A stretch of DNA of 64,000 bases from Alkalihalobacillus sp. CinArs1 (lineage in GTDB: Bacteria > Bacillota > Bacilli > Bacillales > Guptibacillaceae): the NCBI RefSeq assembly GCF_947387515.1, contig NZ_CANDOB010000001.1, forward strand, positions 1,240,001 to 1,304,000. Reading direction: 5' to 3'. Positions 47,388 to 63,227 of this stretch are shown here, piece after piece. The position numbers were made by a program, and so were the translations under genes. Below the pieces are notes generated by a model. It was not told the origin of the DNA and ran no database searches. It worked only from the letters and a program-made list of their open reading frames with translations. How positions within the stretch are numbered: position 1 is the stretch's first letter; every line of letters starts with the position of its first letter.

Positions 47388-47426
47388 AAGAGGCGTTTCC
47401 CATTCTCGGGAACCGCCTCTTTTTGT
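47388..47426 (+). terminator. Terminator after dtpT
   Basis: AAGAGGCG, one mismatch, TTCCC (47388-47401) pairs with GGGAACCGCCTCTT (47408-47421) and is followed by a T run. Confidence 0.87.
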
Positions 47427-47467: not shown

Positions 47468-49243
47468 CTAACGAGCTAGCCTAACTGCCTTCTTCTGATA
47501 AAGGTTAGCATACACATTATCCGAACGAATGAGGTCGTCGTGCGTGCCAAATTCAACGATCTCACCGTTATCAATCACCACGATATGATCCGCATGTTGA
47601 ATCGTTGAAAGTCTATGAGCGATCATAATTGTTGTTCGTCCTACCATGAGCCGATCGAGCGCTTCTTGCACGAGGCGTTCAGATTCGTTGTCCAACGCTG
47701 AAGTCGCTTCATCTAACAGTAAGATTGGTGCATCTCTCAATATCGCTCGTGCAATGGCAATACGCTGCTTTTGCCCTCCTGACAACCGTGCTCCTCGCTC
47801 GCCTACCTGCGTGTCGTAACCTTTAGAGAGCTCTACAATAAACGAGTGAGCATTGGCTTTCTGAGCTGCTTCGATTATTTCTCTAGAACTTGCTCCAGGC
47901 TTTCCTAGAGCGATGTTCTCCTCAATCGTTCCACTGAAGAGAAATGTTTCTTGAGGGACATAGGAAAAATAACTTCTTTGTTGTGAAACGGACATCGATT
48001 CGACTGACTTTCCGTCGAATAGAATGTCACCCTTCTCAGCCCGATAGACTCTTTGAAGAAGATGGAGAAGCGTACTTTTCCCACCACCGCTTGGCCCAAC
48101 GAGGGCCGTGACTTTGCCTGCCAGAATCGTTAACGAGAAATCCTTGAACAGCTTCTCACAGCCCTGGTACTGAAAATCCACATTCTTAAACTCAATACAC
48201 TGATACAATGCCCTATCCTCATCAACAACTTCCCCAATGTCCATCTCAGGCGGAACATCCATCGCCTCCTTAATTCGCTCCACAGCGGCGATTGAGCGCT
48301 GAAACCCTCCCCATTCACCAGCTAAATCAGTAAGAGGATAAACAAGATGCTGCATGAGACTAACAAATGCGAGAAGGACACCTACCGTGATCTCACCATC
48401 TGAAACGAGAAAAGCTCCGAGTCCGAGCGTTATGAAGAAGGACATCGTTCCAGCTAGGTTAGCTGAAGAATTAAACCAGCTTCGCATTGAAGCTTCTTTT
48501 AATTCGTTGTCAAAAAGTTCATCAGAGTTCTTTTGGTATTTTCGTGAGAAAAACTGTTCTAAATTAAAGACTCGTAAAACAAGATTTCCTGCAAAGCTAT
48601 CATTTAGCGTAATATGAAGGTCTTCCACTTTACCATGAATCGTTCGGTTTCGATCTCTCATTAATTTACCAAAAATAAGTCCGCAAACGAGTGTAAATGG
48701 GGCAAGAAGGAGGAAGATCATCGATAACTGCCAGTTGAGATAAATCAAATAGGCAAACACGGAAAGAATCATGATCGGTAGTCTGATAAGATTAAGCAAA
48801 ACGCCCCCCACCGCTCCATTGATCTTATCGATATCATTCGTTACATTCGATAACAGCTTACCCGAATGATTCTTTGAAAAAGATGCGTAAGGCATCGATA
48901 GGAAACGATGGTACATATCGATTCGTAAATCTTTCTTCACATGACTCACCGTTGACGTTCTAAAATACGTATTAAAATAATCAAGAAAAATACTAACTAA
49001 TAACGAGCCGAGACCGATTGAAAAAAGCTTGAGCAAGTTGTCAAAATTGCCTTGAACGGCTTGGTCCGTTATATGCTGCATCAGCCAGGCAAATAAAATA
49101 ATGATGAAAACATCAGTAACTAAAATAAAAAGGAGAAAGCAATAGCTTCTCCAGTACGTTCTAATATAGGGAAAAAGAAAAGCTAATGAACTACGGATAT
49201 CACCTGCATCAATGCTTCTTTTAATACGAGCGAGAATGTTCAT
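47468..49243 (-). CDS. ABC exporter of the RiPP-like operon
   Basis: A 591-residue fused permease-ATPase: six membrane segments up to about residue 320, then Walker A GPSGGGKST, signature LSGGQKQRIAIARAI and Walker B ILLLDEATSALD. It has no N-terminal C39 peptidase domain, so a leader would be removed by another enzyme. It is the last cistron of an operon with a peptide gene, a PqqD/RRE protein and a kinase, and overlaps the S26 peptidase gene. Export of the mature peptide is the likely role. Start is ATG 49243 after AAGGGA; a TTG six bases earlier is less likely. Confidence 0.85.
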   Translation of the reverse strand: MNILARIKRSIDAGDIRSSLAFLFPYIRTYWRSYCFLLFILVTDVFIIILFAWLMQHITDQAVQGNFDNLLKLFSIGLGSLLVSIFLDYFNTYFRTSTVSHVKKDLRIDMYHRFLSMPYASFSKNHSGKLLSNVTNDIDKINGAVGGVLLNLIRLPIMILSVFAYLIYLNWQLSMIFLLLAPFTLVCGLIFGKLMRDRNRTIHGKVEDLHITLNDSFAGNLVLRVFNLEQFFSRKYQKNSDELFDNELKEASMRSWFNSSANLAGTMSFFITLGLGAFLVSDGEITVGVLLAFVSLMQHLVYPLTDLAGEWGGFQRSIAAVERIKEAMDVPPEMDIGEVVDEDRALYQCIEFKNVDFQYQGCEKLFKDFSLTILAGKVTALVGPSGGGKSTLLHLLQRVYRAEKGDILFDGKSVESMSVSQQRSYFSYVPQETFLFSGTIEENIALGKPGASSREIIEAAQKANAHSFIVELSKGYDTQVGERGARLSGGQKQRIAIARAILRDAPILLLDEATSALDNESERLVQEALDRLMVGRTTIMIAHRLSTIQHADHIVVIDNGEIVEFGTHDDLIRSDNVYANLYQKKAVRLAR

Positions 49244-49694
49244 CGGCAAGATCCCTTTTCTTTAGGATTTTGTTCACGTAGATGTGTGCAAGAACTGAGA
49301 AAAATCGTAAATAGCTGAACGAGAGACTATATGCTTTGATAAGAGGACTGTTCATCCTAATCGTTCTATTATTTCTACTAATACTCGTTAACACGCCGAT
49401 TATTTCACTCTCTCGAACAGGCGCATCAGGGTAAAGATTCGTGTCTCCCTTGAAGATGAACCATTGTTTCGTACTGCTTTTATGAGATTTAATAAATCGA
49501 TGTCCGGTTAGATTGCCATCTCTCGACTGAAACAAAACGACGTCACCACGTTTGATGAGAGAGAGATCCATCGTTTCAAATACGCAGCAGTCACCTTCTT
49601 TTATGAATGGATACATACTCATTCCTTTTGAAGGAACCTCTAGTTGACCGTGTTCGTTCATCAAAGTACGTAGGATGGTAGCATGCTCATTCAT
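49221..49694 (-). CDS. S24/S26 signal peptidase-like protein
   Basis: A 157-residue serine peptidase of the S26 (SipW/ER-type) kind. The nucleophile Ser26 lies in GMSMYPFI, RGDVVLFQ follows, and His65 in TGHRFI takes the place of the bacterial lysine as in ER-type signal peptidases. FKGDTNLYPD is the later conserved Gly-Asp. A basic, hydrophobic C-terminal stretch (SYLRFFSVLAHIYVNKIL) may bind the membrane. It overlaps both neighbours (PqqD-like and ABC genes). It could cleave the leader of the small peptide made by this operon. Related S24/S26 proteins accompany paeninodin-type lasso peptide clusters. Confidence 0.82.
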   Translation of the reverse strand: MNEHATILRTLMNEHGQLEVPSKGMSMYPFIKEGDCCVFETMDLSLIKRGDVVLFQSRDGNLTGHRFIKSHKSSTKQWFIFKGDTNLYPDAPVRESEIIGVLTSISRNNRTIRMNSPLIKAYSLSFSYLRFFSVLAHIYVNKILKKRDLADEHSRSY

Positions 49695-49951
49695 GTTGTG
49701 ACTAAGCCAGCATCCAACATATGATTCAAGAAATCCTCAATATCCTTTTCCGCTACATCGTCAGGCACATCATAGTGACGCTGAATTTCTTCCCTTAAAG
49801 AACTTACGGATTGCTTTTCTTTCAAAAGGGACCAGCATTCACCACCGATTCCGTTTAATTTCGTAACAGTGTAATCACTCGGGTGGAGAATCACCCAGTT
49901 TCCGTCCATTTCCACAGCGTCTAGATTCGTTTTACGAATATAAGTAGTCAT
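49691..49951 (-). CDS. PqqD-family RiPP recognition element (RRE) protein
   Basis: An 86-residue PqqD-like protein. It has the small winged-helix layout of RREs: beta strands NWVILHPSDYTVTKLNGIGGEC (quoted up to the usual limit as two parts: NWVILHPSDY and TVTKLNGIGGEC) and C-terminal helices with EDFLNHMLDAGLV. RREs hold RiPP leader peptides for modifying enzymes. It overlaps the kinase and peptidase genes by one and four bases. In lasso peptide clusters the same domain (B1) works with a B2 protease and a cyclase; neither is present here. Confidence 0.85.
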   Translation of the reverse strand: MTTYIRKTNLDAVEMDGNWVILHPSDYTVTKLNGIGGECWSLLKEKQSVSSLREEIQRHYDVPDDVAEKDIEDFLNHMLDAGLVTT

Positions 49952-50736
49952 TACGATATCTCCTCCCAGAAAGCATCATTCTTCTGAAACTTAAGATTAT
50001 AGACAGGTACCACTCGAACAAGCTGTTGTAGAAGGGAAAATAACTTTTGAGTTTCTGCTGGATCATACGCCCAATAAAAAATCTTATCGAGCATTTTCAT
50101 AACACTCTCGGCTTTTTCTAACTTAACCCTCTCGATCGTTGATGATTGTTCAAGAAGTTGGATTCCAGCAAGCTTCAGCGGTTTTTCAGAGAAAGAAGCC
50201 ACCGTATCACTTCTAAAGGGGGAGTCAAACGCCTGAACATCACCACTCGTAACCTTCACCACTGTGGCTTCATCAGATAAGATCGTTCGCGGGCTCGATA
50301 ATTCGGCTACAGTAGATTTACCTGCACCAGAGTGTCCAGTGAAGATAAACGCTTTCTCATGCTCTTTTATACAAGAGGAATGAATGAGAAGGCCCCACTT
50401 ATTATGAACGATGAAAGCACTATACAAGTTCATCAATGCGTGTTTAAGCGCAAAGTCGTTATACGCTTTTATGGTCGCTTTAGCGTAATTTTCGTCTACC
50501 TCGATGAGATAGTCGCCGCGATTATAGAAAACAGATCCGTTACCCTTTTGAATAGCTACATCAAAACTCGTAAAAGGATAACCGTAGCCATATTCTATAG
50601 ACACCTTTAGTGATTCTCTAACACCCTCGGGATTTAGTATAATCTTAAAATTTTCGTTCACAAATCCCATCGCTTTATCTGAACCAGTCTCAATCGCTAA
50701 CAAGTGTTCTCCGATTTCAATCATGACCATTTTCAT
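49951..50736 (-). CDS. HprK-like kinase of the RiPP-like operon
   Basis: A 261-residue protein with an HPr-kinase-like fold. HSSC (His119-Cys122) precedes the Walker A GHSGAGKST (134-142), and SDEATVV (Asp155) has the second-metal Asp. The N-terminal ~110 residues are unlike HprK. Such short HprK-like proteins in paeninodin-type clusters phosphorylate a serine near the C terminus of the peptide. Here Ser23 of the small peptide is a possible target, but that is inference. It overlaps the nucleotidyltransferase gene by four bases and the RRE gene by one. Confidence 0.82.
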   Translation of the reverse strand: MKMVMIEIGEHLLAIETGSDKAMGFVNENFKIILNPEGVRESLKVSIEYGYGYPFTSFDVAIQKGNGSVFYNRGDYLIEVDENYAKATIKAYNDFALKHALMNLYSAFIVHNKWGLLIHSSCIKEHEKAFIFTGHSGAGKSTVAELSSPRTILSDEATVVKVTSGDVQAFDSPFRSDTVASFSEKPLKLAGIQLLEQSSTIERVKLEKAESVMKMLDKIFYWAYDPAETQKLFSLLQQLVRVVPVYNLKFQKNDAFWEEIS

Positions 50737-51860
50737 GAACTCTCCCCCCTGCTCTTCACACTTTTAAAATTGAACGGTTGATGAAACATCACTCGATAAT
50801 ACTCTTTTAAGAGTGTCCATTTCGATATCGATTCTCGATCTTCCCCCAGAAAGTACATAAGATACATCCTTGGTGGATTAATATAGTGAAACCATTTCGC
50901 GCCTGTGATCAAAAAAGCTGGAGTATCTACGAGTAAGTAATCAAAATAAAATCGATAAAGATAGTAAGCTAGATTTTTCTTCCCTGTGTGAGTTCGACGA
51001 GCAAGAGCTAAGCTCCAGAACACAAAAGTAGCGTACCGATACGGTTTGATTTCATGAAGAAATCGACACTCCCGGTAAAGAATAGTGAGAACAGCCTTAA
51101 CTTTCCTCCAAGTTTTATCTCGTTTTGCCCGTTTTTTAATCTCTGTGAAATCAATTTGAGAAGGAAATGTGGTAATGATTTGAAGCAAGTCTATGAAGTA
51201 TTTAACTGAGTCCATATTGTGCCTCGCAGCATGTAAACACGTATAGTACAACGTATCCTGCTTCGATAACACCCTGACATACTTGAAATCAGAGTATGGC
51301 TCAGAATTAACCCAGAAGATATCGGGATCAACGTTGGAAGAATACTCTTTATCTAAGTTCCAATGCAATTCTACTGATACTGATAAACCAGCGTTTACTT
51401 TTACGAACGTGCAATGATTGTTCGTGGGATCTTCTTCTTCCTCGTTTGTAAATCCTTGTTCTTTTACGAGCGCGATCGCCGTTTGCAGTTCGGAGGGACG
51501 GATGAACAGATCAATGTCTGCCGTCCCCCTTGCTGCAAAATCTCCAAAATACTCTTCAGAGAAAACAACACCCTTTAACGGAATTACGGAAATGGCCTCA
51601 GAATCAAACACGTCAAGGAGGTGGAATAGCTCATGTCTAAGCATTAAATTCTGATAAGCTGCCCTCTGAGAAGATTCTTTCACTTGCTCTGAGAGGAGTT
51701 GAGTTACTCTTTCAGTCTGTGTACGATCCTTAAGATAATGATGTATCTGTGACTTTATAGCGAACACTTCTACATCACGTACCAAACCTATGTAGTCACT
51801 TTCCTCCCCTTCTACAAGCTCTTCATTAGTGAACAACTTTTCAAGCAAAGACAGGATCAT
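50733..51860 (-). CDS. Nucleotidyltransferase-family protein of the RiPP-like operon
   Basis: A 375-residue protein. PLKGVVFSEEYFGDFAARGT (quoted to 20 residues) is followed by DIDLF with Asp115 and Asp117, the metal-binding pair of the minimal nucleotidyltransferase fold, and SVELHWNL further on. C-terminal helical regions have many aromatic residues (YYLYRFYFDYLL-like), perhaps membrane-associated. Proteins of this family occur in lasso and related RiPP clusters, where they may add a nucleotide group or be involved in tailoring. It is translated from ATG 51860, four bases after GAGGAGGTG, 24 bp after the small peptide gene. Confidence 0.8.
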   Translation of the reverse strand: MILSLLEKLFTNEELVEGEESDYIGLVRDVEVFAIKSQIHHYLKDRTQTERVTQLLSEQVKESSQRAAYQNLMLRHELFHLLDVFDSEAISVIPLKGVVFSEEYFGDFAARGTADIDLFIRPSELQTAIALVKEQGFTNEEEEDPTNNHCTFVKVNAGLSVSVELHWNLDKEYSSNVDPDIFWVNSEPYSDFKYVRVLSKQDTLYYTCLHAARHNMDSVKYFIDLLQIITTFPSQIDFTEIKKRAKRDKTWRKVKAVLTILYRECRFLHEIKPYRYATFVFWSLALARRTHTGKKNLAYYLYRFYFDYLLVDTPAFLITGAKWFHYINPPRMYLMYFLGEDRESISKWTLLKEYYRVMFHQPFNFKSVKSRGESS

Positions 51861-51884
51861 AGCGCACCTCCTCTTAGATAGAAG

Positions 51885-51980
51885 TTAATCGTCCTTCTTC
51901 TTTCTTTTACCTGATTGCGTTGTTTCAAACGAAATCGGTTGATGTGCAAGTACTTTAGGAGCTTCGTAAGGTTTCTTCAT
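51885..51980 (-). CDS. Leader-like small peptide, candidate RiPP precursor
   Basis: A 31-codon ORF with a strong ribosome site (GGGAGGTGG close to ATG 51980) and promoter. The peptide has MKKPYEAPKV at the N terminus, which contains YxxPxV like the YxxPxL recognition motif that RREs bind in lasso leaders. It continues LAHQPISFETTQ, with Thr at a position like the conserved Thr two residues before the core, and ends SGKRKKKDD. A core of about nine residues cannot form a lasso ring plus tail. It is the first cistron before nucleotidyltransferase, kinase, RRE, peptidase and exporter genes. A function as a phosphorylated or otherwise modified small peptide is inferred. Confidence 0.72.
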   Translation of the reverse strand: MKKPYEAPKVLAHQPISFETTQSGKRKKKDD

Positions 51981-52020
51981 GAATCCACCTCCCTTTCACT
52001 CATTTCAACTTCACACGTTC

Positions 52021-52049
52021 ATTATAACGCACAGAATGCACAAGTTCAA
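52021..52049 (-). promoter_or_regulatory. Promoter of the RiPP-like operon
   Basis: TTGAAC (complement of 52044-52049), exactly 17 bp, and TATAAT (complement of 52021-52026) give a near-consensus sigma-A promoter, with a leader of about 33 bases before the small peptide ATG. Confidence 0.75.
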
Positions 52050-52211: not shown

Positions 52212-53873
52212 ATGGAAGCTTGTTCACAACGTTTGTTGCAAGAACAAATTAATCGTACAAGCGCTTCAGGTGGAGGCACTGTTTTTATAGAAGAATGCAC
52301 GTATATTCTTACTGAGCCACTTATCTTGAAAGCTGGTGTTCACTTACAAGGCGCCGGCCAGGGGAAATCAATTCTTAAGATAAATCCAAAAGACGCGAAT
52401 GGCATATCTGCTAGTCACAAGCTCTTAATTGCGGACCGCAGTGATAACATCAAGATTAGTAACGTAACGTTCGATGGCGTTAAGTATAGTAGAGAAGACC
52501 TTATCGATGATCCCTATGCACATACGGTTGAAGTTGCATGGTGCAATCATTTCGAACTAGACCAAGTCGAAATCATTAACTCGGCTAGTGCTTCGATCGT
52601 TCTTTACAATTCTACTAACGGGACAATCAAAGATTGTTCGATTAAGAACAGTGGATCAAATGGCATATTAGCCCTACAAGATTGTAGGAGCATCTCAGTT
52701 CTCAATAACACTATTGAAAATACTGACTTTCAAAACGGCATCTTTTTCAGTTACCAACTCGGTAAGTCATCTTCTACTATTACAATCGAAGGCAACACGA
52801 TAAAGAATGCTGCTGATTTTGGAATTGAAGTTGGACATACTGTAGCGGAAGGCGATCCTGCTCACTCAGAAATCGTCGTTCGAAATAACACCGTAGTGAA
52901 CTCACAAAACAGTGGAATCGCGTTTAGAACGGTTAGCTTTGGACTGATCGAAGATAATGTGATCGAAGGCTACGGGAAGAACGGAGGATACGGAGGAGAT
53001 GGAATCTTCGTTGAAGGCTTTAGAAATCGGGCGGAAAAAGTCAACGTTATGAATAACACCGTCAAACAAACCAATACCACTGGAAATGCAAATGCAATCT
53101 ACATTACAGGAGTAGATCAAGTCAACGTGGTAGGAAACCAAATGGTCGATAGCAATGGAAAAGGGGTCTTTGCTCAAGCCTCTGTGATGGGAGTGACGAC
53201 AAACGATTTTCCAAACGGCAGGAGAAGGTACAATAACATTACTGTTCTAGAAAACGAGATTTCAAACCCTAAAGGTGTCGGTATACAGTTTCAAGGAGAA
53301 GCTTCTCAAGAAAATAGAATAATTGGGAACATCGTCACAAACAGCGGTGAAGAAGGGATTTTAATAGCAAACCTCGATGATGAGAACAGGGGGATTATGA
53401 TTGAGAGAAATACCATTACTTCGAGCTCCTTCGAAGGCATCGGGATTTTTAGACAGCAAGACTTTTCGCTCAATGAAAATAAGCTCGTGAACAATGGGCA
53501 GGCTGTTGATGGTGTTGAGAATAGACAAGCAGGAGTCCGCTTAACTGCCGTAGGTAATGGCGCACTTATTGAAAATACGTTTAAGGATGACCAAGATACA
53601 CCTACGCAACTCTATTATATTGTTGTTAGACAAACAAACGGAAGAGTCACAAACGATGGCGTTAGACTAATAGGCGGCACGAAATCGAAGCTAGTGATCA
53701 ATTCACCAAACTACACAGAATCCGACATTACCTACCAGCCAAAGGACTCTGCTGAATTTGAAGAGAAACTTTTCGATGCAGTGGTAGGACTTGAAAATCT
53801 AGATAGTGAAACCATCGATGAAGTTTTAAGTATCGTTAAAAATATCGTTCAGTTTGCTATACGCTCTAACTAA
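52212..53873 (+). CDS. Right-handed parallel beta-helix protein (pectate-lyase-like), no signal peptide
   Basis: A 553-residue beta-helix protein. The first ~50 residues (QINRTSASGGGTVFIEECTY) form the typical start, then about 20 coils with repeating N-[ST]-hydrophobic patterns such as NNTVVNSQNSGIAF and GDGIFVEGFRNRAEKV. A helical tail follows from about 515. The paralogue at 59678 shares long blocks, including GKNGGYGGDGIFVEG, but carries an N-terminal membrane anchor, which this one lacks. It may act in the cytosol or be exported in another way. Family members include pectate lyases and polysaccharide epimerases. AAGGAGG is nine bases upstream of the ATG. Confidence 0.82.
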   Translation: MEACSQRLLQEQINRTSASGGGTVFIEECTYILTEPLILKAGVHLQGAGQGKSILKINPKDANGISASHKLLIADRSDNIKISNVTFDGVKYSREDLIDDPYAHTVEVAWCNHFELDQVEIINSASASIVLYNSTNGTIKDCSIKNSGSNGILALQDCRSISVLNNTIENTDFQNGIFFSYQLGKSSSTITIEGNTIKNAADFGIEVGHTVAEGDPAHSEIVVRNNTVVNSQNSGIAFRTVSFGLIEDNVIEGYGKNGGYGGDGIFVEGFRNRAEKVNVMNNTVKQTNTTGNANAIYITGVDQVNVVGNQMVDSNGKGVFAQASVMGVTTNDFPNGRRRYNNITVLENEISNPKGVGIQFQGEASQENRIIGNIVTNSGEEGILIANLDDENRGIMIERNTITSSSFEGIGIFRQQDFSLNENKLVNNGQAVDGVENRQAGVRLTAVGNGALIENTFKDDQDTPTQLYYIVVRQTNGRVTNDGVRLIGGTKSKLVINSPNYTESDITYQPKDSAEFEEKLFDAVVGLENLDSETIDEVLSIVKNIVQFAIRSN

Positions 53874-53878
53874 TGTAA

Positions 53879-53911
53879 AACAGTGATAGGGAGTCCCATC
53901 ACTGTTTTTTT
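53879..53911. terminator. Bidirectional terminator between the beta-helix and pssE genes
   Basis: AACAGTGATAGGGA and TCCCATCACTGTT pair almost completely around one G and are followed by T7. It serves the + gene ending at 53873 and the - gene ending at 53910. Confidence 0.85.
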
Positions 53912-54410
53912 AATCCTCAATAAGTCCTACCGCTATTTCATCTAACCTTCCAATGAAATAATCAAGATTAGAGTTTTCACTCACACGAACGAACTCTGAG
54001 TCTCTTCCCTCGAGAGATTGAATAGCATCTTTCAACGTCGAAATATCTAAAACTGTCACGATTCGATTCTCCTGCTCCAACCGTTTTGCGAAATATACCT
54101 GATGATCATCTACATGTTCAGCAAACTGTGCTTGCCTTGGGACAACGATAGGTGTTTTCCCCATTGAAAGAGGAAGCATAATGCTGCCTGGCCCTCCATG
54201 AGTAATGATAATCGATGCCTGCTGTGCTTTCTCTATCATTTGATCGTAGCTTATCAAAGGTTCATACTCGAAGTGCTTCGGTTTATAGGTGGTATACCCT
54301 ATCTGAACGAAAACTTCTTCATTGATCATCCCTTTCTCGATCAAATCGTCGATTTCACTCACTAATCGATCAAAAGGCTGCTCATGCGTTCCTACGGTTA
54401 CAAAGATCAT
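53910..54410 (-). CDS. pssE: PssE/Alg13-like glycosyltransferase subunit
   Basis: A 166-residue protein with the GT28 C-terminal fold: MIFVTVGTHEQPFDRLV at the start and ASIIITHGGPGSIMLPLSMGKTPIVVPR, the UDP-sugar-binding loop (only its core IITHGGPGS is certain). It forms a pair with the preceding PssD/Alg14-like protein, with a four-base overlap. In streptococci and rhizobia such pairs transfer a sugar from UDP to a lipid-linked saccharide at the membrane. It is the last gene of the operon starting at 59572. Confidence 0.88.
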   Translation of the reverse strand: MIFVTVGTHEQPFDRLVSEIDDLIEKGMINEEVFVQIGYTTYKPKHFEYEPLISYDQMIEKAQQASIIITHGGPGSIMLPLSMGKTPIVVPRQAQFAEHVDDHQVYFAKRLEQENRIVTVLDISTLKDAIQSLEGRDSEFVRVSENSNLDYFIGRLDEIAVGLIED

Positions 54411-54856
54411 AATAATCCTCCTAAAAATTCACCTTTAGGATACATTTTCTTCTGTTCCTCCCATTGAAGGATGAATTTATCTGTAATAGGATAGACGATT
54501 TTTCCAGTTAGGGTCGAAAGTTCGATTCGGTCGTACACTTCGATATAGATCAGCTTACTTCCCAGCAGTTTTCCAATATAAAAGAATGGAATGGCAGGTG
54601 CAGCACCAGTCGAAATAATAATATCTGGTCGTTCTTTAATAAGAACCCTCCAGCTCAAAAAGGTGTTTCTCATCAAATTTTTGATATTACGATTCGTAGG
54701 ATAATAACACCAATAGCGCTTTTCATCTTTCAGTAAGGAACAGCTATCTTGTTTTTCAAATGTCACCCAGAATCGATCATGCTTACCCCACCACTTTTCT
54801 AACTGATACAACTGCATTAAATGGCCGCCGCTAGATCCTACTAAACAAATCTTCAT
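54407..54856 (-). CDS. pssD: PssD/Alg14-like glycosyltransferase subunit
   Basis: A 149-residue protein starting MKICLVGSSGGHLMQLYQL, the Alg14 signature, followed by a membrane-associating stretch (FYIGKLLGSKLIYIEVYD) and the end of the fold. It recruits the PssE catalytic subunit to the membrane. A CAAAACGTTTGG palindrome lies in the 40 bp before it. The role in repeat-unit assembly is inferred from the neighbours. Confidence 0.88.
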   Translation of the reverse strand: MKICLVGSSGGHLMQLYQLEKWWGKHDRFWVTFEKQDSCSLLKDEKRYWCYYPTNRNIKNLMRNTFLSWRVLIKERPDIIISTGAAPAIPFFYIGKLLGSKLIYIEVYDRIELSTLTGKIVYPITDKFILQWEEQKKMYPKGEFLGGLL

Positions 54857-54896
54857 CTAAACATCTCCCATTCGTTTAGATTGGCAAAACGTTTGG

Positions 54897-56051
54897 TTAA
54901 AGTGAACGAATCAGACTTCCGTTAACGAGCACAGTTTTACGCCAGGCTTCTAACGCGATGCTTTGTGGAATAGTCACATCGTCAAACTGAAGCTCTTCCC
55001 CAGCTTTCACAGTTCGTTTCAAAGTGGCTTGTGATAACAACCCGATCGGAATATGATCTGGATTTTTTGAAATCTCCGTCACCGTTCCCCTAACATCGAA
55101 GCTGCCGATTCCTTTCTCAATTCTATCTCCGGGCGACAGCGTTCTTTTTGCAGTAGCACCTACACTATAGGTGGGCTTCGTTGAGTTATTTAATAGGATC
55201 CCCCCGCCTCTCAAGACTCGTTTAATCGTCTTGATGATTTCAAGATGGCAAAGATGATGGTTCTGAAGGATCGTGTAGTACGGTCCTTGCCCCATCTTTA
55301 AATAGTTCAGCGCGGCTGCTTGATTACGATTATGTTCAGCTGTTATAAAAACCCCCGGAGGGCCAGAAGAACACAATATGTAATCACTGATTGGAAGCCC
55401 TACCTTCTTTGCATCAGCTGCTAGTGTATTCCCTCCCTCTTCAACACTTTTTGCAGCGATACCTGGAGACCGATGTTTCGCGAGTGCTCCATTTAATCCA
55501 TTCGCAACGAGAACTTGTTCAATATTCACCTTTGTACCGTCAGTAAATGATGTCACCATTCCCAAACTGATACCATTTTTCTTTGACCAATAGGCCATCT
55601 CATCAGGAGTTGGGTTTTCATTCAAATAGCCTTTGATATTTCCATATACGAGAGGAGTGAAACCCATCTCCATCACATTTTCTCTAAGTGCTGCGATCGA
55701 CCCAGGTTGATCTCCTTCTGCCTCAGTAATAAATCCTTTTTGGGCGAAGTAGGTTCCAGTCGTAATCTGCAATTCTGAGTTCATCGTTACAACCGGTAAT
55801 GAACCTTTCATCGCCTCATTGATCACGTAAGATCCATGAAGCACATCTCCTGAACACTCCACGATCAGATCGAGGCTATCGAGGAATCGATCGACTGAAT
55901 TTGTTAGAAGGTGCCTTGGTATATTCTTGATAGTAGATATATTTCTCCTTGTCAGCACTTTCCCAACAGCTAGTTCTTTATGTTGCTGTAGTAAGTTGAT
56001 AAGACCTGTTCCAATAAACCCTGTTCCGACAACCCCTATTTTTTTTCTCAT
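54897..56051 (-). CDS. NAD(P)-dependent oxidoreductase with C-terminal SAF domain (COG4091 type)
   Basis: A 384-residue protein: an N-terminal Rossmann domain (KKIGVVGTGFIGTGLINLL), then LIVECSGDVLHGSYV and a homoserine-dehydrogenase-like catalytic part, and a C-terminal SAF domain (AKRTLSPGDRIEKG... VKAGEELQFDDV). This arrangement is that of the predicted homoserine dehydrogenases with SAF domain. SAF domains occur in sialic acid synthase and altronate dehydratase, so sugar-acid chemistry is plausible. Its place inside an exopolysaccharide operon suggests a role in making an unusual sugar or linked group. ATG 56051 follows GGGAGGG by nine bases. Confidence 0.78.
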   Translation of the reverse strand: MRKKIGVVGTGFIGTGLINLLQQHKELAVGKVLTRRNISTIKNIPRHLLTNSVDRFLDSLDLIVECSGDVLHGSYVINEAMKGSLPVVTMNSELQITTGTYFAQKGFITEAEGDQPGSIAALRENVMEMGFTPLVYGNIKGYLNENPTPDEMAYWSKKNGISLGMVTSFTDGTKVNIEQVLVANGLNGALAKHRSPGIAAKSVEEGGNTLAADAKKVGLPISDYILCSSGPPGVFITAEHNRNQAAALNYLKMGQGPYYTILQNHHLCHLEIIKTIKRVLRGGGILLNNSTKPTYSVGATAKRTLSPGDRIEKGIGSFDVRGTVTEISKNPDHIPIGLLSQATLKRTVKAGEELQFDDVTIPQSIALEAWRKTVLVNGSLIRSL

Positions 56052-56123
56052 TACCAAGTACCCTCCCAATCGAGCCGATCTAATTTTTATATTGTTCTCC
56101 CTCCTTAACCTCTCTGCAGACCG

Positions 56124-57551
56124 TTATAAAGAACGGTCGGTCATATCGATCTCTCTATCTTCTTCTCTCTTTTGCTTCTTAAGAAGGAAGTATGAAACGA
56201 CGAGGGCAAGATGGAACCACACGAACCCCATCCGGAAACCATTATTAAAGTTGAAGTTCACTAATACCAGGATGCTGCACCCAATGAGACCTAATGAGAC
56301 AAAATCATTTTTGTTGTAGGTTTGTTTTAGCATCCAGATGATACGGCTGATGATGAGTAAAAAAATCGCTAACCCTACAACACCTGTATCAAATAATACC
56401 GATAAAAATATATTCGCATTTCCTTTTCCAGTGTTGAGATCTCCCCCGCCCGCATATTTGATTTTGTTCTCTTCTAATTCTGATAGTAAAGCCATTCCAC
56501 CGCTTCCATTTCCTACGATCGGATGTTTTTGGATGTAATCCCACATGAGTTCGATCGAACCTAAACGGCTATCTGCAGCACCGCGATCAGTTTTGACAGA
56601 GGTTGCGGGATTAAAGCGATTCGTAATTTCTTTAAAAATGTTCTGATCGACAGCAAATAGAACGACGAGTAAGAGCATGACTAATGTTGCAGCGGAAATT
56701 GCCATCTTCAGTATTCGAATGTTCTTTGTTACAACAAGTAAGTAAAGACCAGCGAATATGAAGGCCACAATACTCGCTCGTGCCATGCTGATGAAGATGC
56801 CTAGAAAAGAGAGTGCCATCCCATACTGCACAAACTTCTCACTAAACAGCGTTGTATCTTTTCGGATAAACAAGGCAAGGAACCATATAGACGTATAGGC
56901 TGCGAATAAGCCGAACCAGTCTGGTTCGTATGCAAAAGAAGATGGTCTCGGAATCCCAATCGCATCATAGTGACTGATGCCGATGTGAATTCCCAGAAAG
57001 AAACCGATCCACTGCAAGATTCCAACAACCACAACGATGAATCCTGATAGGATCGTGAACTTTACGATCTTCATGAAGAAAGGCAGCTCTTTTTCACGAA
57101 TGCATTGAACGGATATAAAGAAAAACAAGTTTAAGAATAGCTGTCCGATAACGGAGACCCAGAAATCCTTCATGCTCAGAACATGTTGATAGCTCAGAAA
57201 GTAACTCAACACCCAAAGGTTGATGAGGAAAAATAATGGCACTTTCCATAGCTGCCGTTTTTGCAGTAAATATTCGATCACTAATTTTACGCATACGACA
57301 GTAAGCAACAGTTGATAGATACGAATGTAAGATCCTGACACGACGATGAACGAAACATCGATGAAGATGACGAGCGCAATCGTTGTAATAAGCCTTTCTA
57401 TAGAAATAGGATAGAAGAGAACAATCATTACTGGGATGCTTAAGACGACCATGGCCAACAGATTAACGGTGGACATAAGACCAGATAGACCAGCAAGAAA
57501 AAGGATTCCTAAGATGAGTGGAACAGGTAGTTTCTGAAGCGTGTGATCCAT
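56124..57551 (-). CDS. O-antigen ligase/polymerase-like membrane protein (Wzy type)
   Basis: A 475-residue membrane protein with about 11 segments and one large outer loop near residues 300-370 containing RGAADSRLGSIELMWDYIQKH and NGSGGMALL, which are typical of the O-antigen polymerase/ligase family. It would polymerise lipid-linked repeat units outside the membrane. The ATG at 57551 is nine bases after AGGAGG; an ATG at 57560 overlaps the ribosome site. It lies five bp downstream of rfbD. Confidence 0.82.
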   Translation of the reverse strand: MDHTLQKLPVPLILGILFLAGLSGLMSTVNLLAMVVLSIPVMIVLFYPISIERLITTIALVIFIDVSFIVVSGSYIRIYQLLLTVVCVKLVIEYLLQKRQLWKVPLFFLINLWVLSYFLSYQHVLSMKDFWVSVIGQLFLNLFFFISVQCIREKELPFFMKIVKFTILSGFIVVVVGILQWIGFFLGIHIGISHYDAIGIPRPSSFAYEPDWFGLFAAYTSIWFLALFIRKDTTLFSEKFVQYGMALSFLGIFISMARASIVAFIFAGLYLLVVTKNIRILKMAISAATLVMLLLVVLFAVDQNIFKEITNRFNPATSVKTDRGAADSRLGSIELMWDYIQKHPIVGNGSGGMALLSELEENKIKYAGGGDLNTGKGNANIFLSVLFDTGVVGLAIFLLIISRIIWMLKQTYNKNDFVSLGLIGCSILVLVNFNFNNGFRMGFVWFHLALVVSYFLLKKQKREEDREIDMTDRSL

Positions 57552-57564
57552 CGGCGACATCCTC

Positions 57565-58434
57565 CTAATTTACTTTCCATAAGGCCCTCTTTTCGATTTC
57601 CTTCACATACTCCCTTAGCGCCTCTTCCCACCTCCTCATAACGAGAAAGTTATTCAGCGTTAAATTGAACGGTTCCATCGTTGAGTTTTTAGGTCGAGGT
57701 GCAGGAGCAGCGTACTCTTCTGTGGTCACTGGTGACAATTCGATCGCGATGTTGGAGACATGAAAAATTTCCTTCGCGAATTCAAACCAGCTGCATTGAC
57801 CGCTATTCGACACATGATAGGTTCCATATTTCTCAGTTTCAAAGATTTCAATCATCTTGTTCGCAAGATCGTACGTGTAGGTAGGGTTTCCGATTTGATC
57901 GGTCACAATTGATAACGAGTCTTTCTTCTTAGCAAGATCCTGCATCATCGTTACGAAGTTTTTATGATCTCCGCCATATAGCCAGGATGTTCGAAGGATG
58001 AAGTGATTTGGAGAAAATTCTTTCACATATTGCTCCCCAGCCAACTTCGAACTTCCATAAACATTGATTGGATTCGGAGTGTCGTATTCTGTATAAGCTG
58101 TTCTCTTCATTCCGTCGAAAACGTAGTTGGTGCTGAGATAAACGAGCTTACTGTTCACGTTCCTCGCTGCAACCGCAACATTTCGACTTCCGACTGCGTT
58201 AACTTCAAATGCACGCTGAATAGTTGACTCAGCCTGATCCACATTCGTGTAAGCTGCACAGTGGATGATAACGCTTGGATTTACATCTTTAACCGATTCA
58301 TTCACAAGGCTTTGATTCGTGATGTCTAACTCACGACTTCCAAATGGGTAAACGAGATAACCTCGGCTTGATAAAATGGGAACGAGCTCACTTCCAAGCT
58401 GACCCTTTGCTCCAGTGATCAACACCTTTTTCAT
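57565..58434 (-). CDS. rfbD: dTDP-4-dehydrorhamnose reductase RfbD
   Basis: A 289-residue SDR enzyme that makes dTDP-L-rhamnose. GAKGQLGSELV is the nucleotide-binding loop, HCAAYTNVDQAE the RfbD signature, and YGSSKLAGE the Tyr-Lys pair. The C-terminal APRPKNSTMEPF is typical for substrate binding. Its partner rfbB lies at the far end of the cluster (63228). The other two rhamnose genes (rfbA, rfbC) must be beyond the right edge or elsewhere. Confidence 0.92.
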   Translation of the reverse strand: MKKVLITGAKGQLGSELVPILSSRGYLVYPFGSRELDITNQSLVNESVKDVNPSVIIHCAAYTNVDQAESTIQRAFEVNAVGSRNVAVAARNVNSKLVYLSTNYVFDGMKRTAYTEYDTPNPINVYGSSKLAGEQYVKEFSPNHFILRTSWLYGGDHKNFVTMMQDLAKKKDSLSIVTDQIGNPTYTYDLANKMIEIFETEKYGTYHVSNSGQCSWFEFAKEIFHVSNIAIELSPVTTEEYAAPAPRPKNSTMEPFNLTLNNFLVMRRWEEALREYVKEIEKRALWKVN

Positions 58435-58450
58435 TTCAGCACCGCCTATC

Positions 58451-59572
58451 CTATTGATGCACTACACTTTGCTCAATCGTATCCCTATAAACCTTTTCGA
58501 ATCGATTTACAACTGATGCCCAGGAATAGTTTCTCGCTGTTTCGATCGCTGCTTGTTTTAATTGATTTTTGTTAGACTTCTTAATCACATCATTTACGTG
58601 AAGAGCAGCTGATCGAACATCAGTAAAATCGAGCACGTAGCCGTTCTTTCCATGATCGACCATCTTCTTGAACGATGGAATATCACTTAAGATCGGAATC
58701 GCTCCTGAAGACATCGCCTCTAATGCAGACATTCCAAATCCTTCGTAAGCGGAAGCCGAGATAAAATATTCAGCTTTCCCCATCTCTTCTAAAAGTTCTT
58801 CATTGGGCAAAGATTCTCTGATCGACACATAGTCTTCTAACTCGTACTCTGCGATTTTTTTGAGCAAGCCATCTTTCAAGTTATCGAAATCTTTTCCTAC
58901 GATGCAAAGTCTGATATCCGGGTTTTCATCTTTTAATAAGTGAATTAAAGTCACAAGTTTATCGATTCTCTTGTTTTGAGAAAACCTTCCTACAAACAAG
59001 AATCGATTTCGTTGCTTTTTTACGTGTGAAACACGATGGTACGCATCAAAGTCGATGCCGTTTTCGATGATTTCCGTCTTTCTCTTCCCAAGTGGTTGAA
59101 AGAGTTCGTAATCATTGATGCTGCAAGCGAGGATTCGATCTGCCTGCATAAGACTCATCCGCGTCATCGTTTGGAAATAGACTTTCTTGAACTGTACAAG
59201 ATCTTGAGTATGAAAAAATCCGCCGTGTGTGGAAAGGACGATCGGTTTCTTATGAATCGCTTTGAACCATGTGAAGTAATCGATAAAAAAGTCGACGGCA
59301 TGGACATGAATGAGGTCATAGTTCGATAGATAGGAGATAGAAGAAAGCGCAACAGGGTACTTCTTTGAACCTACATATGGGATGCGCGTTACATTGATTC
59401 CATTTTCAATCGATGAAGTTGGAAGTTTGTTTCCAGTAGCAAACTCTCGGTCCAGTGTAAGAACGTCAGAATCGATGCCCTTCTGCTTCAAATGCAAAGC
59501 GAGACTCTCAACAAAGCTTTCCATCCCGCCAATCGAAGGTCGATACTGCCTGACAACATGCAGCACTTTCAT
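58451..59572 (-). CDS. Glycosyltransferase family 4 (EPS)
   Basis: A 373-residue GT-B glycosyltransferase. The N-terminal VLHVVRQYRPSIGGMESFVESL is the usual acceptor half. FVGRFSQNKRIDKLV begins the donor half and ASAYEGFGMSALEAMSSGAIPI is the UDP-sugar motif with its conserved Glu pair. ATG 59572 is chosen because AAAGGACGGTGA precedes it; an extension to 59623 is not supported. It is the first gene of an operon under two SinR-like palindromes. Confidence 0.9.
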   Translation of the reverse strand: MKVLHVVRQYRPSIGGMESFVESLALHLKQKGIDSDVLTLDREFATGNKLPTSSIENGINVTRIPYVGSKKYPVALSSISYLSNYDLIHVHAVDFFIDYFTWFKAIHKKPIVLSTHGGFFHTQDLVQFKKVYFQTMTRMSLMQADRILACSINDYELFQPLGKRKTEIIENGIDFDAYHRVSHVKKQRNRFLFVGRFSQNKRIDKLVTLIHLLKDENPDIRLCIVGKDFDNLKDGLLKKIAEYELEDYVSIRESLPNEELLEEMGKAEYFISASAYEGFGMSALEAMSSGAIPILSDIPSFKKMVDHGKNGYVLDFTDVRSAALHVNDVIKKSNKNQLKQAAIETARNYSWASVVNRFEKVYRDTIEQSVVHQ

Positions 59573-59596
59573 CGCATTTTCACCGTCCTTTCGAAT

Positions 59597-59612
59597 GTTC
59601 TCTATATAGAAC
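59597..59612. promoter_or_regulatory. SinR-type palindrome upstream of the EPS operon (site 3)
   Basis: GTTCTCTATATAGAAC, with one arm matching GTTCTYT exactly. It lies 25 bp upstream of the glycosyltransferase ATG. Confidence 0.6.
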
Positions 59613-59658
59613 GATTGTAACATTAGTTACGCTATTGTACAATATAACGAATGTTTTA

Positions 59659-59674
59659 ATTCTATAAAAAGAAC
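59659..59674. promoter_or_regulatory. SinR-type palindrome upstream of the EPS operon (site 4)
   Basis: ATTCTATAAAAAGAAC; on the minus strand it contains GTTCTTT. It is 62 bp from site 3, in the spacer between the beta-helix gene (59678) and the glycosyltransferase gene. Confidence 0.55.
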
Positions 59675-59677
59675 AAA

Positions 59678-61162
59678 TCAGTATGATTCTATATTATTTT
59701 GTGTTTCGATATCTTCAGAACTCTCAATGATGATCGGTTCATACGCCCCATCAACATCAGCGATTCGAAGCGTATTGTTCGTAATTTGTCCATAGCGTGT
59801 GCTCACTACTTTGATTGCAGCTTTTCCGCCGCTTTCCACAGTATTTTCATCTAGCCGCAAATCATCCTGATTGTAAACTTCGATCCCGTTCGCTTCGTTA
59901 TCTGTTACGGTATTGTCTTCTATTTCGAGTCCACTGCTTCGATAGATGTTTGCGACAAAAATACCTGTTGACCGGTTCCTTTTCACATGATTATCAACAA
60001 TTTCATTATTCTCTGAACCCGCTCCTTGTAGGTGGATCCCTTCGTTCTTACTTTCGAAAATCTCGTTTTTTCTAATCGTAATTCGCTCGTATTCTCGTAA
60101 ACCATCTTTAAAATCTGCCGTCGCTTCCCCTAAGTTAGAAGCCTGAACAAATATGCCTTTTCCGTTACTGTTCAATACGGTATTCCTTTCGATTAAAGCC
60201 CCATCAATTCCAGTAATGTAAATACCGTTAGCATTTCCACTCTCATAAGTTTGTTTCACGAAATTGTCTGTAACAGAGACGTCATACGCCTTATTAAATC
60301 CACCTTCAACAAAGATTCCATCTCCACCATACCCACCGGTCTTGCCGTATCCTTCGATCGTGTTATGTTCGATCCGCCCCTGGCTGACCGTGCGAAAGGC
60401 AATGCCTGCGTTTTGAGAGTGTAGAACAGTGTTCCGTGCTATGACGATTTGACGGTGAGGGGTGTCACCCTCTTTAACGTTATGGCCAACTTCGATACCA
60501 AAGTCTCCAGCATTCTCGACCGTATTTCCTTCAATTATAATGTTTTCACTCGACTTACCTTCCTGATAACTAAAATAAATTCCGTTCTGATAATCTACCT
60601 GTTTAACCGTGTTTCCCTTCACAACGATGTTTTTCATTGCCTGAAGCCCAAGTATCCCATTAGAGCCACTATCTATAATCGTATTGTTCTCAACAAGGCC
60701 ATCTTCAGCATTATAGAGAACGATCGAGGCACCTGCTGAATTGATGATAGTAGTATTATAGATTTCGAAGTTCTTTACGAACGGAAAACTGATCGTGTGT
60801 GCACTAGGATCATCGATCAACGATTCTCTATTTTGTTTGTCACCATCGAATGTGATGTTACTAACTTTGACATCAACTGCACCTTCTTCTGCTTCTAGTA
60901 ACTTAGCACGGTTAGGCTCACCATGAATCTTCGCTTTGATTTTAAGAATGGTTTGGCCATTCTCCGCCCCTTTTAAATGCACACCTGACCTTAGAACGAT
61001 CGTGTCTTCTAGATAAATAGTTCTAGGAGGTAGCTCTACAGCCCCTCCTCCCTCTCTATGTTTCTGATCGATCGATGCCTGAATATCATACTCTTTTGGA
61101 AGAATGAGTATGAATACGACGACAAAGACAAGGAAAAGGGAAACAAGCCATTTTACAACCAT
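59678..61162 (-). CDS. Membrane-anchored right-handed beta-helix protein
   Basis: A 494-residue protein with an N-terminal anchor (VVKWLVSLFLVFVVVFILIL), then a beta-helix of about 18 coils. Coil repeats such as NNTIIDSGSNGILGL and NTVLNSNGKGIFVQA are clear. It is a paralogue of the protein at 52212. Such proteins often are polysaccharide lyases or epimerases, or bind polymers; catalytic residues cannot be named here. It follows the SinR-like gene by 14 bp, with AGGAGGGAGCT at the ATG. It may process the polymer made by this cluster. Confidence 0.83.
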   Translation of the reverse strand: MVVKWLVSLFLVFVVVFILILPKEYDIQASIDQKHREGGGAVELPPRTIYLEDTIVLRSGVHLKGAENGQTILKIKAKIHGEPNRAKLLEAEEGAVDVKVSNITFDGDKQNRESLIDDPSAHTISFPFVKNFEIYNTTIINSAGASIVLYNAEDGLVENNTIIDSGSNGILGLQAMKNIVVKGNTVKQVDYQNGIYFSYQEGKSSENIIIEGNTVENAGDFGIEVGHNVKEGDTPHRQIVIARNTVLHSQNAGIAFRTVSQGRIEHNTIEGYGKTGGYGGDGIFVEGGFNKAYDVSVTDNFVKQTYESGNANGIYITGIDGALIERNTVLNSNGKGIFVQASNLGEATADFKDGLREYERITIRKNEIFESKNEGIHLQGAGSENNEIVDNHVKRNRSTGIFVANIYRSSGLEIEDNTVTDNEANGIEVYNQDDLRLDENTVESGGKAAIKVVSTRYGQITNNTLRIADVDGAYEPIIIESSEDIETQNNIESY

Positions 61163-61176
61163 AGCTCCCTCCTAAC

Positions 61177-61503
61177 TCAATTCTCCTGCTGACTGTGCCA
61201 TTTGATAAAATCGAATAGGATCTTATACTCACTGAGCTGCTGCGTTGTAATCCCTTCTTCATGAGCAAGTTGTACGACTCCCGTCAGCTCATTCGATAGC
61301 GATAACCGATCGACATCCAGTAAGTCATATAAATCGACTTCGAGCACCTTACTGACACGTAATAGCACATCGATCGTCGGATTCGTCTTAAGGTTTCGTT
61401 CAATATTGCTAAGATAAGATTTTGAAACTAACGCACGCTCAGCGAGAACGGATAATGAAATCCCCTTTTCCCTTCTAATCTTCCTTACATTTTCTCCTAC
61501 CAT
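61177..61503 (-). CDS. SinR-like XRE-family regulator
   Basis: A 108-residue protein resembling B. subtilis SinR (111 residues) over its full length. The helix-turn-helix has SKSYLSNIERNLKTNP, almost identical to SinR, and the C-terminal ILFDFIKWHSQQEN resembles the SinR/SinI interaction helix. ATG 61503 (MVGENVRKIRREKG) matches the SinR start and is 11 bases after GAGGGGG; an upstream frame adds non-family residues. SinR represses biofilm matrix genes at GTTCTYT sites. Sites of this type lie about 1.6 kb away at 59597 and 59659. No sinI antagonist gene is seen in the window. Confidence 0.85.
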   Translation of the reverse strand: MVGENVRKIRREKGISLSVLAERALVSKSYLSNIERNLKTNPTIDVLLRVSKVLEVDLYDLLDVDRLSLSNELTGVVQLAHEEGITTQQLSEYKILFDFIKWHSQQEN

Positions 61504-61558
61504 GTGAGAGAGTTCCCCCTCATCCCAACAGACAGCTGGCACCTTTCCTTTACTCATC

Positions 61559-62260
61559 TCAACCATAGAGCTTTTCACTCTCTTTGTTTTCTACGGCTAC
61601 ATCGTTGAATAAATCTGCTGGTGTGACTGCCCCTGTTAAATGCTTTTTCAACCATTCCTCTCCTTTAGAAAATAGGTTAAGAGAAACGAGTCTCTCGATC
61701 GTTTCTTCATCAAAACGATATTTCAGTACTTTTGCAGGTACCCCGCCCACAATCGCATACGGAGGAACATCTTTCGTTACGATCGACCCTGCAGCAGCGA
61801 TCGCCCCTTCCCCAATTGTTACACCGTCTAAAACGATGACGTTCGCACCGAGCCAAACATTATCGCGAATCGTAACCCCTTCGAAGTGATCGTAATACTC
61901 TTTATCGACCCACGTTTCGTTATTTAGTTGGCCGAACGATGAATAAAAAATAGGTGATGTGCTAACGAAATGAGCAGGATGTGAACCGAGTCCCATCTGG
62001 CAACCTGGGCCGAACGAGCAATAAGACCCAATCGTGCTATTCATGATGTTATTGTTTCTAGAAGCATACGTATAATCACCGATCGTAGAGTGAGACACCC
62101 TAGAGTAATCGTTGATTCCACAATGTTTGCCCATTCTCGTCGTATTCGGGTCGATCTGAACGCCTGGTCCAATATAGACTGCTGAGTGAAGCTGTTTGAA
62201 CTTCTTCAACTTCAACCAGTTTTTTACGGAGTATGGAATAGACTTCTTTAGGAACTTCAT
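61559..62260 (-). CDS. Hexapeptide-repeat acyltransferase (CatB/XAT-like)
   Basis: A 233-residue left-handed beta-helix acyltransferase. It has isoleucine-patch repeats, for example GVQIDPNTTRMGKHCGINDYSRV (positions about 32-55) and IRDNVWLGANVIVLDGVTIGEG. SHPAHFVSTSPIFYSS contains the catalytic His typical of the family. It probably acetylates a sugar of the exopolysaccharide. The ATG at 62260 follows GAGGGGGG; an extension to 62356 is unsupported. It lies between the GT2 and SinR-like genes. Confidence 0.88.
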   Translation of the reverse strand: MKFLKKSIPYSVKNWLKLKKFKQLHSAVYIGPGVQIDPNTTRMGKHCGINDYSRVSHSTIGDYTYASRNNNIMNSTIGSYCSFGPGCQMGLGSHPAHFVSTSPIFYSSFGQLNNETWVDKEYYDHFEGVTIRDNVWLGANVIVLDGVTIGEGAIAAAGSIVTKDVPPYAIVGGVPAKVLKYRFDEETIERLVSLNLFSKGEEWLKKHLTGAVTPADLFNDVAVENKESEKLYG

Positions 62261-62282
62261 ACCTTCCCCCCTCTTCCTATTC

Positions 62283-63197: not shown

Positions 63198-63227
63198 TTA
63201 ACTCCCTCTCAATAAGTCATATTTTGA

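Follow-up and report, generated by a model that had tools for sequence, protein, structure and literature searches.

The 64,000-nucleotide stretch analysed here (the window) comes from Alkalihalobacillus sp. CinArs1 (assembly GCF_947387515.1, contig NZ_CANDOB010000001.1, positions 1,240,001-1,304,000, forward strand). Its minus strand carries, at 52049..47468, an operon with a promoter, a 31-codon open reading frame (ORF) and genes for a nucleotidyltransferase, an HprK-like kinase, a PqqD-type RiPP recognition element (RRE; RiPP, ribosomally synthesized and post-translationally modified peptide), an S26 peptidase and an MsbA-like exporter. We consider it very probable that this is a stand-alone operon for the biosynthesis of a Linear Polyphosphorylated Peptide (LPP) with a minimal precursor, working by the mechanism proposed below. 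It is a new example of a class already described by Popov et al. (Nat Commun, 20 May 2026, PMC13381572). An earlier reading, made from the sequence alone (the sequence-only reading), had located all of these elements at the positions where we find them, and had proposed a different class of RiPP in which a linear peptide is phosphorylated, cut by the S26 enzyme and exported. That scheme coincides with the published LPP model, whose diagnostic residues are present, and the assignment to a linear, non-lasso class stands; the class itself is no longer new.

The LPP Operon and Its Enzymes

The LPP gene set comprises a SipW-like peptidase, a discrete RRE, an HprK-like kinase, a nucleotidyltransferase and an MsbA-like exporter, and its leaders follow the consensus YxxPxVLxHQxIxFETxxS (PMC13381572). 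All five enzyme types occur in the window, the nucleotidyltransferase as a PF14907 protein, and every motif and residue hallmark examined is present: the leader, RRE residues N33 and D70, the peptidase Ser-His-Asp, the kinase P-loop and Ser at core position 3 (Ser3). The operon is composed as follows:

52021..52049, minus strand: sigma-A-type promoter TTGAAC-N17-TATAAT (-35 at 52049..52044, -10 at 52026..52021), read in the sequence
51885..51980, minus strand: precursor LppA, 31 amino acids (aa); ORF, family motif, similar peptides in relatives
50733..51860, minus strand: LppN, PF14907 nucleotidyltransferase, 375 aa; Pfam, conserved residues, predicted fold
49951..50736, minus strand: LppK, HprK-like kinase, 261 aa; weak family match, P-loop
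49691..49951, minus strand: LppB, discrete RRE (PqqD fold), 86 aa; Pfam, solved relatives
49221..49694, minus strand: LppS, SipW/archaeal-type signal peptidase as leader peptidase, 157 aa; NCBIfam, residue spacing
47468..49249, minus strand: LppD, MsbA-like ATP-binding cassette (ABC) exporter, 593 aa; Pfam, NCBIfam

The 31-codon ORF has the Shine-Dalgarno sequence AGGGAGGTGG and is separated from lppN by a 24-base gap. The gene pairs N/K, K/B, B/S and S/D overlap by 4, 1, 4 and 29 bases, the last figure assuming the listed TTG start of lppD. An inverted repeat with a T-run (AAGAGGCG...CGCCTCTTTTT) is located at 47388-47425, between lppD and a convergent peptide transporter gene; by eye, it looks like a terminator for the plus-strand gene, and its T-run is weak on the lppD side.

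The operon was compared with relatives collected in a survey. A kinase query matched 6 of the 14 genomes of the genus that were searched, and a pattern search of a genome-contig collection yielded 6 loci; a kinase profile matched 6 of 15 genomes in the family, 8 of 398 in the class, 39 of 397 in the order, 2 of 4 in a second family and 40 of 295 in a third. Because these genome sets overlap and include or centre on known carriers, the counts are not prevalence figures. Altogether 92 loci were annotated, among which L028/L134 and L029/L135 are the same loci taken twice (no precursor was accepted in any of them); a kinase match on contig C23 of genome G991 was left out of the set. Of 91 loci anchored on a kinase, 75 have the complete five-gene set inside 6.5 kb; this count leans high because the LppD and LppN profiles also match lasso homologues. 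The residue-conservation counts given below leave out the window and count two loci twice.

LppB matches PqqD (2e-16, Pfam); its closest solved relative is LppB 9x8z (84.3 bits), with the paeninodin RRE PbaB1 (9x90) at 23.7 bits. Residues N33, D70 and F74 are present, and across the survey N33 is kept in 80/83 sequences and D70 in 69/83. Both N33 and D70 matter for Y-type leaders, and paeninodin RREs have Gly at the position of N33 (PMC13381572). LppS reaches 61.5 bits on the archaeal-type signal peptidase I model TIGR02228 (cut-off 51.85), and its match to the SipW model (6.5e-7) is below that model's cut-off. By spacing, the published sequence itself not being aligned, its S26, H65, D90 and F39 correspond to the published S29, H68, D93 and F42, and the Ser, His and Asp are kept in all 83 survey sequences. 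The HprK_rel_A match of LppK is weak (5.1e-9) and below cut-off, so the kinase assignment rests on the intact P-loop (GHSGAGKS) and on relatives; H119, D155 and E156 are also present, and the P-loop lysine is kept in 88/90 sequences. A sequence search of solved structures with LppK returned nothing useful, and plasmid records gave a single weak match to the kinase. LppD is MsbA-like, below the equivalog cut-off.

LppN matches PF14907 at 3.6e-35, with K96, D115, D117, E164 and H166 conserved and the DxD aspartates kept in 80 of 81 survey sequences. Its predicted model (mean predicted local distance difference test score 77, from only 6 sequences) gave ANT(2'')-Ia and LnuA as best Foldseek matches (E 7e-4 to 6e-3, query TM-score 0.31-0.33), in alignments spanning 165-186 columns of the 375-residue protein; a sequence search of solved structures produced no match. 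We read this likeness as one of fold, not of resistance function. Both ANT(2'')-Ia and LnuA transfer AMP to hydroxyls of small molecules, and since they are nearest to the model, it is plausible that LppN caps the peptide or its phosphate chain with a nucleotide.

A Precursor with a Micro-Core

LppA consists of a 20-residue leader, MKKPYEAPKVLAHQPISFET, and an 11-residue core, TQSGKRKKKDD. The leader stretch YEAPKVLAHQPISFETTQS fits the published consensus at every letter, and the core has Ser at position 3, the published phospho-acceptor position. From the sequence, LppA is predicted to be polyphosphorylated at Ser3 and cleaved after FET. Similar peptides, with MKK-x-YEAP leaders and SGK-type (x-ASGKK) cores, lie upstream of the same gene order in genomes G008 (L013, TASGKKDKDKDKDDKKKGF, 39 aa) and G483 (L092, EASGKKEKKKKN, 32 aa), which argues that the small ORF is not a product of chance. 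In the window, L013 and L092 alike, the leader begins with MKK-x-YEAP, the genes follow the order N-K-B-S-D and the promoter region contains the stretch TGTGCG[T/A]TATAATGAAC.

A strict precursor pattern found 53 precursors in 50 of the 92 loci, and a relaxed pattern added 10 accepted by eye; relaxed-pattern matches in L029, L135, L167 and L170 were judged spurious on visual inspection and discarded. The strict pattern is blind to the core, and in 50 of its 53 precursors core residue 3 is Ser; of the remaining three, one has Cys, one His and one Asn. Outside this position the cores are highly variable in sequence, their lengths range from 9 to about 180 residues, and many start with AQSWN or SQSWN. 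The small ORF, whose absence beside this gene set in relatives would have refuted the sequence-only reading, is kept there; its short basic tail is not conserved across the family, where Ser3 is.

Cores of 9-19 residues occur in 6 of the 60 loci with an accepted precursor: the window, L013, L092, L111, L145 and L148. These six have net charges of +2 to +4 and Ser3 amid Lys/Arg, with Asp/Glu in four of them. What is new in the window is this micro-core, which makes LppA a very short member of the family. Micro-core members would be the simplest substrates for studying the LppN addition and the extracellular role, offering 11 residues with Ser3 and one Thr, compared with 45 residues.

Proposed Mechanism

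In the studied LPP cluster, LppK adds several phosphates to core Ser3, the RRE binds the leader, and LppS, aided by the RRE, cuts after FET; a derivative of B. subtilis 168 expresses an LPP cluster (PMC13381572). From the sequence and this homologous cluster we infer RRE binding, Ser3 polyphosphorylation and LppS cleavage in the window operon. LppB would grip the YEAPKV motif of the leader, LppK would build a phosphate chain on core Ser3, and LppS (SipW-like, Ser-His-Asp), docked on the RRE, would cut after FET and free TQ-S(p)n-GKRKKKDD. Export of the peptide would fall to LppD, the MsbA-like pump. For LppN, whose predicted fold is of the ANT/Lnu type, the probable step is capping of the phosphate chain or addition of a group linked through a nucleotide. 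The probable site of action of the peptide is the cell surface, within the matrix of extracellular polysaccharide that the adjoining locus makes.

SinR Operators and the Polysaccharide Context

Polysaccharide genes neighbour published LPP clusters (PMC13381572), and the window operon also has such genes beside it:

52212..63941, no strand given: polysaccharide locus beside the operon, from family searches of part of its ORFs
61177..61578, minus strand: SinR-family regulator in this adjoining locus, outside the operon, 72.8 bits to SinR 1b0n

The locus encodes beta-helix proteins, Alg13/14-like as well as GT1 and GT2 glycosyltransferases, a Wzy-type polymerase, and RmlD- and epimerase/dehydratase-type enzymes. 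A beta-helix gene is divergent to the LPP operon in the window (52212-53873, by Pfam) and in L013 (9522-11210, likeness by eye), and because this placement is found in both species, the gene and the operon may share regulation.

According to excerpts of two papers (PMC3163267, PMC5733473), SinR, the biofilm repressor of B. subtilis, recognizes GTTCTYT and binds best where two copies are paired in inverted orientation. An exact GTTCTYT box is present within 200 bases upstream of 37 of 63 LPP precursors, whereas 300 dinucleotide shuffles gave a mean of 5.35, a standard deviation of 2.2 and a maximum of 12 of 63. Control regions of the same loci have the box in 89 of 751 cases upstream of ORFs of at least 200 aa, and in 54 of 342 intergenic regions upstream of other genes (Fisher p = 6e-12 against 37/63). 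For loci with the gene order of the window, the box precedes 30/37 precursors versus 43/218 controls (p = 7e-13); for other gene orders, which include the Bacillus record L024, the counts are 7/26 versus 11/124 (p = 0.018). Removal of near-identical upstream regions leaves 35 of 59 precursors with a box. The complete inverted operator, GTTCTTTAAAAAGAAC, occurs with the same letters upstream of 11 precursors (9 after near-identical removal) and of 4 of the 342 control genes, all four being lasso cyclase genes by the positions of the lasso cyclase matches. A SinR-like gene above 95 bits is found in 16/92 loci, or 13/89 excluding three profile builders, a count for which no background rate was measured.

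These frequencies suggest that many LPP operons, and some adjacent lasso clusters, are under SinR biofilm control. The joint rise of lpp, the adjacent lasso cluster and one exopolysaccharide gene in stationary phase (PMC13381572) accords with this SinR reading. Tentatively, and at somewhat less than even odds, we propose that the SinR biofilm programme governs the production of LPPs and of the paeninodin-like lasso peptides beside them: their operons carry SinR operators, so that an LPP would be made only when the cell turns to matrix production, and it would act in or on extracellular polysaccharide. Short-core LPPs would be the minimal form, in effect a basic handle bearing polyphosphate that may be capped with a nucleotide. 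Three points count against SinR control: the promoter in the window has boxes with one mismatch only, the related genomes in the operator counts are not independent samples, and we know of no binding experiment. A term search of the main text of PMC13381572 returned no mention of SinR, and a limited literature search found no earlier report connecting SinR with lasso peptides. The LPP family is only months old, and the operator statistics give its role a direct test, with SinR a solved and well-studied repressor.

Weighing the Readings

Several points weigh against the window being an LPP operon that works as proposed. Published LPP precursors have 35-200 aa (PMC13381572), and LppA, with 31, departs from this trait; four of the 53 precursors, the window's included, are shorter than 35 aa, and we therefore read the range as descriptive and not as a defining feature. 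In 32 of the 92 loci, no match to the precursor patterns was accepted. The window promoter is without an exact SinR box and has only the one-mismatch sequences AATGAAC, overlapping the -10, and ATAGAAC at -174. In the published system, deletion of lppN changed no detectable product, the final product of the family has not been identified, and its biological role is stated to be unknown (PMC13381572); from CinArs1 itself, no LPP product is known. Export and the matrix role are steps that we infer, the latter because of the polysaccharide neighbourhood and the operators.

A different view of the product, which we hold to be unlikely but worth weighing, is that the core serves only as a carrier. 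Function would then reside in the polyphosphate, or in a nucleotide or sugar that LppN and the polysaccharide enzymes assemble on it, and the peptide would prime or anchor a surface polymer. The near-invariance of Ser3 in an otherwise variable core of any length between the extremes given above, the retention of the LppN catalytic aspartates and the polysaccharide context would all suit such a carrier. However, only phosphorylation and cleavage have been demonstrated as enzyme steps, and the published lppN deletion was silent.

It is very improbable that the operon is decaying or silent, with the tiny core as a truncated remnant that gives no product. The core has 11 residues and cores of at least 27 residues are found in 46 of 53 precursors, as truncation would have it, but all six frames are intact, the promoter stretch is common to two other species, L013 and L092 have similar SGK-type cores, and the short cores of L111, L145 and L148 keep Ser3.

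The sequence-only reading had noted that neither a lasso cyclase nor a B2 protease is encoded in the operon, which is correct, and that this gene set always occurs with both, which does not hold: in the LPP study, only about one third of the peptidases are tied to lasso enzymes (PMC13381572). A paeninodin-like cluster that lost these two enzymes, or borrows them from elsewhere in the genome, would share its types of kinase, RRE, nucleotidyltransferase and exporter with the window operon. Moreover, within the genus, genomes G010 (L016) and G013 (L015) carry an LPP cassette, with cores of the SQSWN/AQSWN type, directly beside genes for a lasso cyclase, B1, B2 and kinase, and in G006 (L014) the cassette adjoins lasso genes for B1, B2 and kinase, the 17 kb analysed there containing no cyclase; the G012 locus ends at a contig end. 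The LPP kinase frame of G006 (L014:7847-8503) has one in-frame TAG, while the reading frames of the four remaining cassette genes are uninterrupted. Lasso neighbours are found in 0 of 6 short-core loci and 18 of 32 loci with SW-type cores, a difference confounded by ancestry, and we therefore do not claim that short cores exclude them.

Family searches covered the whole CinArs1 genome (4.03 Mb, 99.76% complete). The B2 protease family PF13471 had no match at E <= 10. PF00733, the Asn-synthase family, had six matches, three of them full length, and these three proteins reach 538-574 bits with TIGR01536, the asparagine synthase model (cut-off 267), and 202-241 bits with the lasso cyclase model (cut-off 525); for comparison, the lasso cyclase of L015, from the same genus, scores 165 and 393 bits, respectively. 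Judged by these scores, the three enzymes are asparagine synthetases, and the 17-18 kb surrounding each of their genes gave no match (E <= 1) to small profiles for lasso B1, B2 and kinase. Only one further PqqD match in the genome exceeds the cut-off: an M50-like protein has it as its N-terminal domain. A dedicated cyclase or B2 protease elsewhere in the genome, which the sequence-only reading had named as a finding that would refute it, was not found by these searches. The leader in the window is of the Y type (YEAP) and not of the W type (WxxP), residue N33 of the RRE contrasts with Gly in paeninodin RREs, and a SipW-like peptidase stands in for B2. The ring residue of lasso peptides is an Asp or Glu at core position 7-9, and LppA has K, K, K there. 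With no B2 match, no lasso cyclase and no lasso neighbours, a lasso remnant or split lasso pathway is the least probable of all the explanations and is refuted for this assembly, as far as family searches reach.

Other Peptide Systems Observed

In the genome of CinArs1, a 22-residue ORF, MKIRKLKKVKTPCWWCIYLRGV, precedes a PqqD-M50-like metalloprotease fusion at L173:1334-2583 (contig C4, about 207,400-208,700). The fusion has 379 aa and a weak similarity to the daptide HExxH protease (29 bits, cut-off 300), and the gene before the ORF resembles, by eye, one for an HD-GYP protein. Among 26 loci, that of CinArs1 included, 17 have a peptide of 19-25 aa, located 36-190 bp upstream, that begins in a similar way and carries CWWC close to the end; these are 17 of the 18 closest loci, and the relatives are L177-L193. 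The CWWC-type peptide has no Pfam or NCBIfam match and no counterpart among the literature matches listed, and together with the fusion it may form an undescribed minimal peptide system. In Alicyclobacillus ferrooxydans, a third RRE-ABC pair lies beside the LPP cassette and lasso genes (L026:14148-16771); it is followed by the peptide YRTPKVSFYREIFFET, whose long, repetitive core, rich in Ser, Thr, Cys and Gly, runs into the locus end.

Comparison with Known Systems

The closest described system is the LPP cluster of Paenibacillus alginolyticus DSM5050 (lppA-K-B-S-D-N; PMC13381572), with which the window shares the five enzyme types, the leader consensus, the RRE specificity residues, the peptidase catalytic residues, core Ser3 and a polysaccharide neighbourhood. 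The window differs in its gene order, A-N-K-B-S-D, in its core of 11 instead of 45 residues, and in that no lasso cluster was found in its genome. Paeninodin-like lasso clusters (PbaB1 type) have the same types of HprK-like kinase, discrete RRE, nucleotidyltransferase and ABC exporter; however, they also have a macrolactam cyclase, a B2 cysteine protease, a WxxP leader and Gly at the position of RRE N33, none of which was found in the window system. LppS belongs to the same archaeal-type signal peptidase family as Bacillus SipW but, unlike SipW, it is a leader peptidase of the kind published as RRE-dependent (PMC13381572) and is encoded in a RiPP operon.

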